In this document: piece by piece, positions 2,449-33,429 of the stretch | Layout of the letters: each line of letters begins with the position of its first letter | Numbering within the stretch: the stretch's first letter is position 1 | Translations under genes and position numbers: made by a program | NCBI GenBank assembly: GCA_018302085.1 | Contig: JAGWAF010000049.1 | Location: 1-33,600 of the forward strand | Reading direction: 5' to 3' | DNA from: Candidatus Woesearchaeota archaeon | GTDB lineage: Archaea; Nanobdellota; Nanobdellia; Woesearchaeales; JAGWAF01 | DNA length: 33,600 nucleotides | The notes under the pieces: model-generated | What the model was told of the DNA's origin: nothing | The model's database searches: none | Seen by the model: the letters and a program-made list of their open reading frames with translations, nothing else

Positions 2449-3414
2449 ATGAAAATAAAAATATTATTGATCCTATGCTTGTTATTTGTGGCGGCTTGCG
2501 CTCAGGAAGAAGGGGCGCAGGTCCAAAGAACAAATCCATTTAGAGGAGGAACCGAGGGAGTTAGTATTAACTATGTAGAAAATTCTCCTCCATCAGAAGT
2601 GTTTGACGGTGGTGGCAGCCCTTTTAACATTGTTGTAAAAGTTAAAAACATAGGGGAATATTTCGTTCCCAAGAATAAGGCATTTGTAGAACTTTCAGGA
2701 TTTGCACCGGAAGCATTTGGACTCACTGCGGGGCAGTTGAAAATTAACCCACCTGAAGATCTCATCGCGGCAACAATTGATTCACAGGGAACAGAAATCC
2801 CAGGAAATGAGGTATACGCCGAATTTCAAAATCTTAATCATCAACAGGCCATCACAGGAGCTTCTTTCACTTACCCTACAATAAGGGCAGAAGTATGCTA
2901 CCAGTATGGAACCATTGCGCAATCCGTACTTTGTTCACGAGAAAACCTTGTGCAACCTGAAGAAGGGGGTATCTGTAATTTGAATGAACAAAAAGTAGTG
3001 TTTAATTCAGGAGCTCCAGTACAAGTCGTTAGTTTACGACAAACCCCAAGGGCAACGGATAAGATAGGATTCCAGTTTGATGTCCAACACCTTGGTACAG
3101 GGATAGGAGGAAAAGTCTTTGAACTCGGCACTGAATGTAAAGAGACCTTCAGAACATATGAAGATAAAGTCCTTGTTAGGGTACGCACGGACAGGCCTGG
3201 ACTTGAATGTACAGGTTTAATTCCCGCAACTGGGCAAACCGCACTTGGAGTTTCTGGGTACGTGAATTTGTACGGTGGCAAAAAGGCAGTACAATGCACC
3301 CAAACTATTCAAAGCCCAAAAGACTTTGAATTCCCAGTTACAATCGAGCTTGAATACGACTACAGAAACATGGCAGAAACAAGCCTAGTTGTAAAACATT
3401 CCGGAGGGATTTAG
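2449..3414 (+). CDS. Secreted lipoprotein, paralog 3 of 3
   Basis: Lipobox (LLFVAAC). GTEGVSINYVENSPPSEVFDGGGSPFNIVVKVKNIGEY aligns with paralogs 1 and 2. Confidence 0.75.
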   Translation: MKIKILLILCLLFVAACAQEEGAQVQRTNPFRGGTEGVSINYVENSPPSEVFDGGGSPFNIVVKVKNIGEYFVPKNKAFVELSGFAPEAFGLTAGQLKINPPEDLIAATIDSQGTEIPGNEVYAEFQNLNHQQAITGASFTYPTIRAEVCYQYGTIAQSVLCSRENLVQPEEGGICNLNEQKVVFNSGAPVQVVSLRQTPRATDKIGFQFDVQHLGTGIGGKVFELGTECKETFRTYEDKVLVRVRTDRPGLECTGLIPATGQTALGVSGYVNLYGGKKAVQCTQTIQSPKDFEFPVTIELEYDYRNMAETSLVVKHSGGI

Positions 3415-3600
3415 TTCTTTTTTTAATTTTTTATATTTCGATGTTTTTTTAAGTTTATATTTTTCATTTCTTACATTTATTTTTTAAGTAATTGATTTCT
3501 ATTGTTTTATTTTAGTATTATTTTCTGCCTTTTTATTTTTGAAAACTGGCACTTGATAAAGTTCTCATTGGAGAAGAGAAAAAGAAACGATCGTTACAAA

Positions 3601-3667
3601 AAATCCTTGTGCATAGAAATCCTGGATTTCTTGCACACAAAATCTTTGATTTTGTTGTGCCTAACTA
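3601..3667. repeat. R2 double-hairpin intergenic repeat, copy 1
   Basis: CCTTGTGCATAGAAATCctgGATTTCTTGCACACAAAATCtttGATTTTGTTGTGCCTAACT; near-identical to 14586-14653. Confidence 0.8.
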
Positions 3668-3682
3668 TATTATGTGCTAGTA

Positions 3683-4636
3683 TTATTTCTCTTTTGTGAT
3701 GCCAACTTGTGCAAGGAATGCCTCTAATTGCAGATAAGCATCGCTCCCCTCAACCATGCGGAATTCTGCCTCCGCACACTTGTCAATGAGAAATATTTTT
3801 TGCCGATCGGTAAGAGAAAGGTCCCAAATGGCCTTTTGGATTTGCTTGACAATGTCGATGCCTGACAAGCCATAATTAAGCATAATTGATAGCAGCCGGG
3901 ATCGCGCTTCTGCAAATTTACCCTGCGATGCAAGGTTGAGCATTTCCTTAATTTCCTCGGGCTCCGCAACCGCAGCCATAGAAAATATTAATTGAGGAGT
4001 AATATTTTTTTCCAATACTGCGCAGCTCTGCAGAATGTTTTCCATTCTTCTGCAATCGCCTTCACAAACTTGGTATAAAGCTTCCTTGGCTTCATTGTTT
4101 ATGGTCAGTCCTTCTTCATATGCAATTTTGTCAAGAATAACAACAACATCATGCTTGGGAAGGGGCTTAAAACGGAAAACTGCGCACCTACTTTGAATAG
4201 GGTCAATAATTTTACTCGAATAATTCGCGGAGAGAATAAACCTACATGTCGAGGTGTAATTTTCCATAGTTCTCCTCAACGCTTGCTGCGCCTCTTTTGT
4301 CAGGGCGTCACATTCATCCAAATAAATTATTTTGAAAGGGACATTACCTATCGCTTTCGTTCGTGCAAAATCCTTCACTTTATTCCTTACAACGTCAATG
4401 CCCCTTTCATCAGATGCGTTCAACTCAAGAAAATTCTGATGCCACTGATCCTTGAAAAGTGATTTTACAACGACTAAGGCGAGGCTTGTCTTACCAACAC
4501 CAGCAGGGCCTGTAAAAAGCAAGTGAGGCATGTTCTGCTGCTCCACAAACGCCTTAATTTTAGTAATGGCAACATCCTGCCCCTTCACATCCTCAAACTT
4601 TCGAGGCCGGTACTTTTCCGTCCAGAGATTACTCAT
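3683..4636 (-). CDS. rfcS: Replication factor C small subunit
   Basis: WTEKYRPRKFEDVKGQD, Walker A GPAGVGKTS, Walker B IIYLDECDAL, SRC box (QSRCAVFRF). Confidence 0.95.
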   Translation of the reverse strand: MSNLWTEKYRPRKFEDVKGQDVAITKIKAFVEQQNMPHLLFTGPAGVGKTSLALVVVKSLFKDQWHQNFLELNASDERGIDVVRNKVKDFARTKAIGNVPFKIIYLDECDALTKEAQQALRRTMENYTSTCRFILSANYSSKIIDPIQSRCAVFRFKPLPKHDVVVILDKIAYEEGLTINNEAKEALYQVCEGDCRRMENILQSCAVLEKNITPQLIFSMAAVAEPEEIKEMLNLASQGKFAEARSRLLSIMLNYGLSGIDIVKQIQKAIWDLSLTDRQKIFLIDKCAEAEFRMVEGSDAYLQLEAFLAQVGITKEK

Positions 4637-14041: not shown

Positions 14042-14110
14042 AATCTTTGTGCAAAGAAAAGCATTGCTTTTCTTGCACAGGAAATCATAGATTTCCTTGT
14101 GCCTAACTTT
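14042..14110. repeat. R2 double-hairpin intergenic repeat, copy 2 (covarying stems)
   Basis: TTTGTGCAAAGAAAAGCattGCTTTTCTTGCACAGGAAATCataGATTTCCTTGTGCCTAACTTT. Confidence 0.8.
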
Positions 14111-14139
14111 TGATTTTTCAATATTTTTTGTTATTATTG

Positions 14140-14227
14140 AGAAGTTTGAAATAATGAGAAATACTCAAACTTCTCTAGAGAACTTTGCCTAAAACACTCC
14201 ATTTTTTGCGTTTTGCAAAGTTCTCTA
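14140..14227. repeat. R1 double-hairpin intergenic repeat
   Basis: GAGAAGTTTGAAATAATGAGAAATACTCAAACTTCTCTAGAGAACTTTGCCTAAAACACTCCATTTTTTGCGTTTTGCAAAGTTCTCT. Confidence 0.88.
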
Positions 14228-14347
14228 TTCTTAATTTTATTCTTAATCTTGTTTATTACTCTATTTTTATTATTTTATTTTTAAGATGGCTCTATTTCTT
14301 TATGCTCCGTTATATTTGAAGCGTTATGCTCAGAGAAGGTTGAAATT

Positions 14348-14431
14348 AGAAAACGACACAAATAATAGGACTAAATGGTCGTTTTCTACTTAGAAACGGA
14401 CAGTAATGCCATAAAGGTTATGTCCGTTTCT
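14348..14431. repeat. Tandem pair of long inverted repeats (hairpins A and B)
   Basis: AGAAAACGAC(14348-14357)/GTCGTTTTCT(14378-14387); AGAAACGGACA(14392-14402)/TGTCCGTTTCT(14421-14431). Confidence 0.8.
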
Positions 14432-14509
14432 AAATAATAAGAAATACTCAAACTTCTCTAGAGAACTTTGCCTAAAACACTCCATTTTTTGACATTTGCA
14501 AAGTTCTCC
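14432..14509. repeat. R1 repeat, copy lacking the left arm of hairpin 1
   Basis: AAATAATAAGAAATACTCAAACTTCTCTAGAGAACTTTGCCTAAAACACTCCATTTTTTGACATTTGCAAAGTTCTCC; the left arm GAGAAGTTTGA is replaced by hairpin B's right arm. Confidence 0.8.
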
Positions 14510-14585
14510 TCAATAAAATTTTATAAAATTGATGGAAAAAAATTAAAAAAATATTTGAAAAGGGGAAAAAGACTGGTCGAACCGA

Positions 14586-14653
14586 AAAATCCTTGTGCAT
14601 AGAAATCTTGGATTTCTTGCACACAAAATCTTTGATTTTGTTGTGCCTAACTT
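14586..14653. repeat. R2 double-hairpin intergenic repeat, copy 3
   Basis: AATCCTTGTGCATAGAAATCttgGATTTCTTGCACACAAAATCtttGATTTTGTTGTGCCTAACTTT. Confidence 0.85.
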
Positions 14654-14714
14654 TACCTTCTCTTACCTGCAGACTAACGCAAACACATATAAACAAAAGA
14701 TCCGTATAAAGTGT

Positions 14715-18255: not shown

Positions 18256-18426
18256 GTTGTAGTTAGGCACAAGGGAGTATATAAATGTTTCTTTTCAGAG
18301 CAGCCTTTAGTATATTTTTGACTATAAAAATTTAGAAATCATGTTGTTTCATAATAAAAAAGTAAAAACGATGAAAGTTAGGCACAAGGTTCTGTTTTTT
18401 TATTTTCTTGTTATTTCAAACTTCTC

Positions 18427-19234: not shown

Positions 19235-19760
19235 ATGGCACTGACACCTTTGTTTCTTATGGAGATATGGTATAGGGTGCCATTTCTTTTGCAGATTATC
19301 AATAAAATAAAAAAAGATTTATATTATTAAAAAGTTATAATATAAAATATATATTAATTAATATTATTTTCTATATAGAAAACTAAATATAACCTTAATA
19401 TAATAATAAGTAATTAATAATTAATATAATAGATAATTAATATAATAGATAATTAATATAATAGATAATTAATATGACCATCTAGATAATAATATAAAAT
19501 AATTGAAATGATACAACTATGTCTTTTCCTATATTACCTTTATTATCTTATTATGCTATCTTTTTTTTATGGTTTCTCTTCACTATGGTTTTTTAGCATG
19601 TTTTTAGCATAGTTTATCTAAAAAGCTTGCTGAAAAAGTGTTTAGATCTGCACCTGTTCCATAAGAAGTCATGGGGTGGGGGTGTTTAGAGAAAAATGTA
19701 AAAAAATGTAAAAATCAAAAGAATTAAATACCTCACTTTCATTTGGAAAAACCTATAAAA
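19235..19760. other. oriC: Candidate chromosomal replication origin region
   Basis: Large AT-rich intergenic region directly upstream of orc1/cdc6 and polD genes; tandem repeat at 19421-19475; ORB-like elements at 19243-19263 (minus) and 19656-19682 (plus). Confidence 0.6.
19421..19475. repeat. 16-bp AT tandem repeat, about 3.4 copies (TTAATATAATAGATAA)
   Basis: 19421-19436, 19437-19452 and 19453-19468 are identical; partial copy from 19469. Confidence 0.93.
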
Positions 19761-26876: not shown

Positions 26877-26985
26877 ACCCTTTTTGTATTTTTGAGGTAT
26901 AAAAAAGTGTCGATATCTTTTTCTTGAATTTTTTTGATTATTTTTATTTTTTTAAAGAGAAGTTTGAATAATCTCTCAATTTGCT

Positions 26986-27073
26986 GAGAAGTTTGAAATA
27001 ATGAGAAATACTCAAACTTCTCTAGAGAACTTTGCCTAAAACACTCTATTTTTTGCGTTTTGCAAAGTTCTCT
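26986..27073. repeat. R1 double-hairpin intergenic repeat
   Basis: GAGAAGTTTGAAATAATGAGAAATACTCAAACTTCTCTAGAGAACTTTGCCTAAAACACTCTATTTTTTGCGTTTTGCAAAGTTCTCT; extra half-arm at about 26956-26967. Confidence 0.88.
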
Positions 27074-27134
27074 ATAGTGAAGGCACCAAATATTCGAACA
27101 TGAATAGTGCATTTTCACTATCACGAAAAGTATT

Positions 27135-27222
27135 GAGAAGTTTGAAATAATAATAAATACTCAAAATTCTCTAGAGAACTTTGCCTAAAACACTCCATTT
27201 TTTGACATTTGCAAAGTTCTCT
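27135..27222. repeat. R1 double-hairpin intergenic repeat
   Basis: GAGAAGTTTGAAATAATAATAAATACTCAAAATTCTCTAGAGAACTTTGCCTAAAACACTCCATTTTTTGACATTTGCAAAGTTCTCT. Confidence 0.88.
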
Positions 27223-27263
27223 ATTGTAATGTTCGATAATTTAATGTTTTGAGTATATTTTCT

Positions 27264-32933: not shown

Positions 32934-32981
32934 GAGAAGTTTGAAATAATAAGGAATACTCAAACTTCTCTAGAGAACTTT
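32934..32981. repeat. R1 repeat fragment (complete hairpin 1, truncated hairpin 2, then T-run)
   Basis: GAGAAGTTTGAAATAATAAGGAATACTCAAACTTCTCTAGAGAACTTTTTT, beginning 2 nt after the pdhC stop. Confidence 0.75.
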
Positions 32982-33312: not shown

Positions 33313-33429
33313 TGCGCTGGCCGGGAATTGAACCCGGGCCGAAGCCTTTTCGCAAGTGCGAAAAGACCAGAAAAATTCTGGTTTTCGCTGCCTTGGCAAG
33401 GCCCCATTGTACCACTCAACCACCAGCGC
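33313..33429 (-). tRNA. tRNA-Gly(GCC) with anticodon-loop intron (33348-33393, 46 nt)
   Basis: Mature GCGCTGG-TG-GTTG-AGTGGTA-CAAT-G-GGGCC-TTGCCAA-GGCTT-CGGC-CCGGG-TTCAATT-CCCGG-CCAGCGC-A (71 nt); intron has a strong internal hairpin. Confidence 0.88.

Follow-up and report, generated by a model that had tools for sequence, protein, structure and literature searches.

The window, the whole stretch of DNA analysed here (33,600 nucleotides), is an entire contig of the 1.29 Mb genome of an archaeon, Candidatus Woesearchaeota, and carries genes for RFC, Orc1/Cdc6, PolD DP2, tRNA endonuclease and tRNase Z. A 16-bp tandem repeat, TAATAGATAATTAATA, lies at 19411–19474, upstream of the Orc1/Cdc6 gene (19954), in what is a candidate origin region, and a 117-nt tRNA, probably intron-containing, was identified by Rfam at 33313–33429 on the minus strand and missed by ARAGORN. 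Three copies of a double-hairpin repeat, R2, are found between the genes of this contig, along with copies of another hairpin repeat, R1, and of a 12-nt motif, TTGTGCCTAACT:

3601–3666, unstranded: R2 copy between convergent genes (2449–3414, plus strand; RFC small subunit, 3683–4636, minus strand)
14042–14110, unstranded: R2 copy with two hairpins in the divergent endA/rnz intergenic region (BLAST, folding)
14047–14052, unstranded: left arm T (TTGTGC) of the 14042 copy
14054–14074, unstranded: hairpin 1 of the 14042 copy, AAGAAAAGC-ATT-GCTTTTCTT
14074–14079, unstranded: middle arm T' (TGCACA) of the 14042 copy, complementary to both outer arms
14079–14097, unstranded: hairpin 2 of the 14042 copy, AGGAAATC-ATA-GATTTCCT
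14097–14108, plus strand: TTGTGCCTAACT host motif of the 14042 copy, including the right arm
14586–14652, unstranded: R2 copy, nearly a duplicate of the one at 3601
3607–3612 and 14593–14598: left arms TTGTGC of the other R2 copies
3655–3666 and 14641–14652, plus strand: right TTGTGCCTAACT of the other R2 copies
14116–14228, 14399–14511, 26963–27224 and 32934–32981: R1 repeat, made up of two hairpins in succession, GAGAAGTTTGA..TCAAACTTCTC and GAGAACTTTGC..GCAAAGTTCTC
14139–14228 and 14422–14511, unstranded: the two R1 copies that lie between the 14042 and 14586 copies of R2
18261–18272, minus strand: hairpin-free ('empty') TTGTGCCTAACT motif
18376–18387, minus strand: hairpin-free TTGTGCCTAACT, second of a direct pair

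The sequence-only reading had described three R2 copies, and all are present with the scaffold, palindromes and coordinates it gave. Each follows the layout T-hp1-T'-hp2-T, namely TTGTGC, an A-rich hairpin of 7–9 bp, TGCACA, a hairpin of 7–8 bp and TTGTGCCTAACT. The upper stems differ between copies (AGAAATC/GATTTCT and AAGAAAAGC/GCTTTTCTT in hairpin 1; ACAAAATC/GATTTTGT and AGGAAATC/GATTTCCT in hairpin 2) and are perfect in all three, the position of a 1-nt bulge is conserved, and the middle arm can form a stem with either of the outer arms at close energies, all of which agrees with that reading. The alternative lower stems come to −23.5 versus −23.3 kcal/mol for the copy at 14044 and to −18.0 versus −16.3 kcal/mol for the other two. 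Folding z-scores of the three copies were −3.84, −4.16 and −4.32, and none of 200 dinucleotide shuffles was equally stable. Because the 3601 and 14586 copies share 85% identity across 103 nt, flank included (3567–3669 versus 14553–14655), the window yields one independent comparison, that of the 14042 copy with the other two, in which two base pairs of hairpin 2 are substituted (CA/TG to GG/CC) and the stem of hairpin 1 is replaced and lengthened. The gene contexts are mixed, being convergent at 3601 and divergent at 14042 and 14586, and BLAST with R2 returned 15 related places in the same genome.

The motif at the right end of R2 is itself a dispersed repeat. Exact copies of TTGTGCCTAACT number 38 in this genome and 62 in that of a related genus of the same family (G003), compared with 0 in both for a reversed-pattern control, and each remaining relative has between 0 and 2. 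The copies are intergenic and often form direct pairs 76–241 nt apart with an AT-rich spacer; only 1 of 25 classifiable own-genome copies in the loci examined lies between convergent genes. In viral contigs, a 16-mer of the motif gave 25 matches, by our estimate about the chance level for a collection of that size. Hairpins occur in about six own-genome copies (the three in the window, C84, C10 with one hairpin and C59 in decayed form), and since most copies are hairpin-free, R2 amounts to two hairpins set into a repeat that was already there, at TTGTGC^CTAACT. No orthologous empty site was demonstrable at rnz or RFC, where the spacers have diverged or been rearranged; the endA-rnz spacer of G003 is diverged and holds a MITE instead. 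A nested pair, TTGTACTCCCTAAATT, which resembles the TTGTGCCTAACT pairs, was seen at C21 and C32.

Other repeats also host such units. One is the CTTGGAG MITE, with terminal inverted repeats and target-site duplications of about 9 bp (TIR GGGTGTGTCCCAA with TSD TCGTTTTTA; GGCTAATATGAAATCC with TTAAAGTTC), whose TIRs differ between lineages and include GGCTTAGTAGAAA / GGCTCTGTCCCAA. Its loci lie in the same genome, G000 (L124, L142, L026–L046), and in related ones (L126–L157, L215–L271); none was seen in the window. A second MITE family (L184 and L185 in G000; L191–L193 in G003) has the TIR GGCTTAGTAGAAA in common with the first and a different interior (GGTCGCCAGCCTAAGGTCGAGCTTC...). The cassette hp1(AGAAAAGC)-TGCACA-hp2(CGAAATC)-TTGTGC also occurs in the CTTGGAG MITE, directly before CTTGGAG at C34, with relatives in C1 and C89, so that a shared hairpin cassette sits at GC^CT in both the TTGTGCCTAACT motif and the MITE, many copies of which are empty at this point. 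Further points of this MITE carry double hairpins, again with empty and filled pairs, and at its site 3 an identical first hairpin is found with different second hairpins. The second MITE is filled at L184 and empty at L185. R1 loops vary and, outside the window, accept double-hairpin inserts: the loop is empty (GCAAAATGTCAAAAAATGGAG) in more than 10 copies and filled in L304, with a close relative in L314. The filled loop in L304 reads TCAAAAA-loop-TTTTTGA-GCACGC-C-hairpin-TAGCG-TTCAAAAA, where the target is present as a direct repeat and once in inverted form. One unit is nested inside the loop of another (L312, 19564), and the matching MITE loop is occupied by a double hairpin in G283 (L152), a genome from another family. 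Target duplication is clear at few sites only (R1 loop, L184) and is ambiguous in R2 because arm and duplication coincide.

Pairing within these units was assessed against shuffled and permuted sequence. The first 19 insertions, at several kinds of site, hold 41 hairpins with 32 distinct stems, and their stem score is 224, against an average of 20.5 and a maximum of 50 for shuffles. A-rich 5' arms, present in 41 of 41 hairpins, were dropped as strand evidence because a palindrome shows the same on both strands. In 16 hand-picked units with defined arms, the middle arm paired better with its own left arm (p=0.0014) and with its own right arm (p=0.0002) than permuted arms did. A scan of 2.35 Mb of collected sequence gave 49 units, of which 44 were distinct after filtering; here the middle arm matched both of its own arms (p=0.0002 each, the floor of 5000 permutations), and keeping a single unit for each distinct middle arm (n=32) gave the same values. 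The scanned sequence is not a random sample and related units have inherited part of their arms, so these values overstate independence and point to arm-specific matching without being exact probabilities. The arms vary jointly (GTGC/GCAC/GTGC, GCGC, GTAC, GAAC/GTTC), a middle-arm consensus, GCRYGC, recurs, and longer chains with alternating arms were found in L360 and L369. A-type double hairpins number 13 in 368 kb of own-genome contigs, chosen partly for carrying repeats, versus 0.3 per 100 kb in shuffles. The units are mostly extragenic, with 11 of 49 within an ORF while ORFs cover 73%. A MAFFT alignment of the divergent double hairpins was too poor for a covariance model. Of 353 genomes from the order, 41 gave BLAST matches to R2 (E<=0.001), many of them single-hairpin matches, and R2 had no match in plasmids and phages.

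We consider it probable that R2 is a non-autonomous mobile DNA palindrome, in which two A-rich hairpins (T-hp1-T'-hp2-T) have been inserted at GC^CT of TTGTGCCTAACT. It belongs to a family of units across Woesearchaeota that also insert in the loops of MITEs and other hairpin repeats. The observations that carry this reading are dispersal, empty and filled sites, nesting, arm matching and mixed gene contexts. Movement would proceed through an intermediate, either single-stranded or formed in replication, whose middle arm may pair with the target or be copied from it, so that stems and arms would be made complementary at each event. Preserved pairing would then be largely a by-product of copying together with a structural need of the intermediate, not a cellular RNA function. 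The sequence-only reading had taken covariation between copies to argue for selection on an RNA or cruciform. Structure is indeed kept while sequence changes, as the 32 distinct stems among 41 hairpins and the arm co-matching in 44 units indicate, whereas the step to selection is unsupported, the units being insertions with empty and filled sites and mixed gene contexts. That reading had also named inverted duplication during copying as an outcome that would tell against it, and the filled R1 site, a direct repeat plus an inverted target copy, comes close to this.

Compensatory changes can also arise without selection through template switching, as published work shows, and hairpins made in this way resemble R2 in their perfect stems and multi-base compensatory changes (PMC8794818). 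An account with no mobile unit, in which palindromes repeatedly arise and are corrected in place through local template switching wherever short inverted repeats already exist, draws on this known mechanism and would suit the inverted target copy at the R1 site and the differing second hairpins at MITE site 3; it is nevertheless unlikely, since template switching alone does not bring a single cassette to host sites as unrelated as the motif and the MITE, or the R1 loop and the MITE, and the recurrence of GCRYGC also speaks against it. A role for R2 as a functional RNA or transcript-end element, with its fold under selection and a switch formed by the two alternative lower stems, is quite unlikely. 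The strong fold, the near-equal energies of the alternative folds and the three-way arm matching would favour such a role, but the contexts are convergent, divergent and codirectional, the palindromes fold equally well from either strand, copies are located in transposon loops and the majority of motif copies have no hairpins; Rfam scans of the window and loci gave tRNAs only, or nothing at relaxed E-value, and R2 matched none of the Rfam covariance models. Movement of R2 as a REPIN-like element by a Y1 (RAYT/IS200) transposase is very improbable: the hairpin pairs are extragenic and without coding capacity, and the middle arm is positioned like an IS608 guide, but PF01797 had no match in G000 (about 95% complete) or G003, though 5 of 14 control genomes match, and the R2 stems are AT-rich.

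Mobile double hairpins have been described for fungal, algal and sponge organelles, where mitochondrial double-hairpin or repetitive hairpin elements include Allomyces DHE, sponge RHE and yeast GC clusters (PMC2800124, PMC4478555). R2, in which two adjacent hairpins form one repeated unit that occupies different sites of a genome with empty and filled pairs, is like these elements in being a small paired or single hairpin that is intergenic, multi-copy, nested or merged and without a known enzyme, and some R2-type units share their short target duplications. The differences are that R2 is archaeal, with A-rich stems and a conserved middle arm able to pair with the outer arm on either side, and that R2-type units form chains with alternating arms and lie within MITE loops. 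The likeness is one of anatomy, the units being too short for a signal of descent to be expected in their sequence. R2 resembles REPINs as an extragenic, non-autonomous hairpin doublet, but REPINs are inverted copies of one conserved REP served by RAYT (PMC3116915), whereas the two stems of R2 differ and a cognate Y1 transposase was not found in the genome. Its ends are direct arms T...T, not TIRs shared with a transposon, which separates it from MITEs. Our literature search found no description of such elements in Woesearchaeota. Three features set R2 apart among mobile double-hairpin elements: the three-way matching of the arms, the spread through the order and the insertion into other repeats. 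We would suggest, with more doubt than belief, that these double hairpins are mobile palindromes of a new class, needing no HUH transposase; their middle arm would guide by target pairing or be remade as the target complement at each insertion, and their T-hp-T'-hp-T units would extend into chains of alternating arms and nest across Woesearchaeota.

The CTTGGAG MITE adds a covarying four-helix core that is absent from Rfam. This core, CCTTGGAG...GATTCATGCA...CTCCGC, spans about 106 nt. Across 76 distinct sequences from the collected loci, 94.7% of cells pair versus 64.6% when shuffled, both partners change in 23 of 25 pairs, and the covariation score is 0.746 versus 0.184 shuffled and <=0.147 when slid, in an alignment fitted to the model, which favours this score. 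All four helices covary, including a change from GGAG/CTCC to GTAG/CTAC. Of 353 genomes from the order, 18, spanning five families, carry the core, often in many copies. A pattern search of 84,980 species gave 58 stretches, 55 of them in Candidatus Woesearchaeota / Nanoarchaeota MAGs; the other three, bacterial, were taken as chance because none matches the covariance model. Viral contigs gave 0 matches. Orientation relative to genes is not fixed, and a search by TIR pattern for an autonomous partner returned only MITE-sized copies in the loci inspected. The core is possibly a new structured RNA carried by transposons, or else a structure of ssDNA.

These results bring a caution, in that covariation between dispersed repeats can arise from copying and need not mean functional RNA. 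If our reading of R2 is true, a single middle arm serving two alternative stems, together with alternating chains, would constrain the mode of copying, and mobile double hairpins would be common in an uncultured archaeal order.
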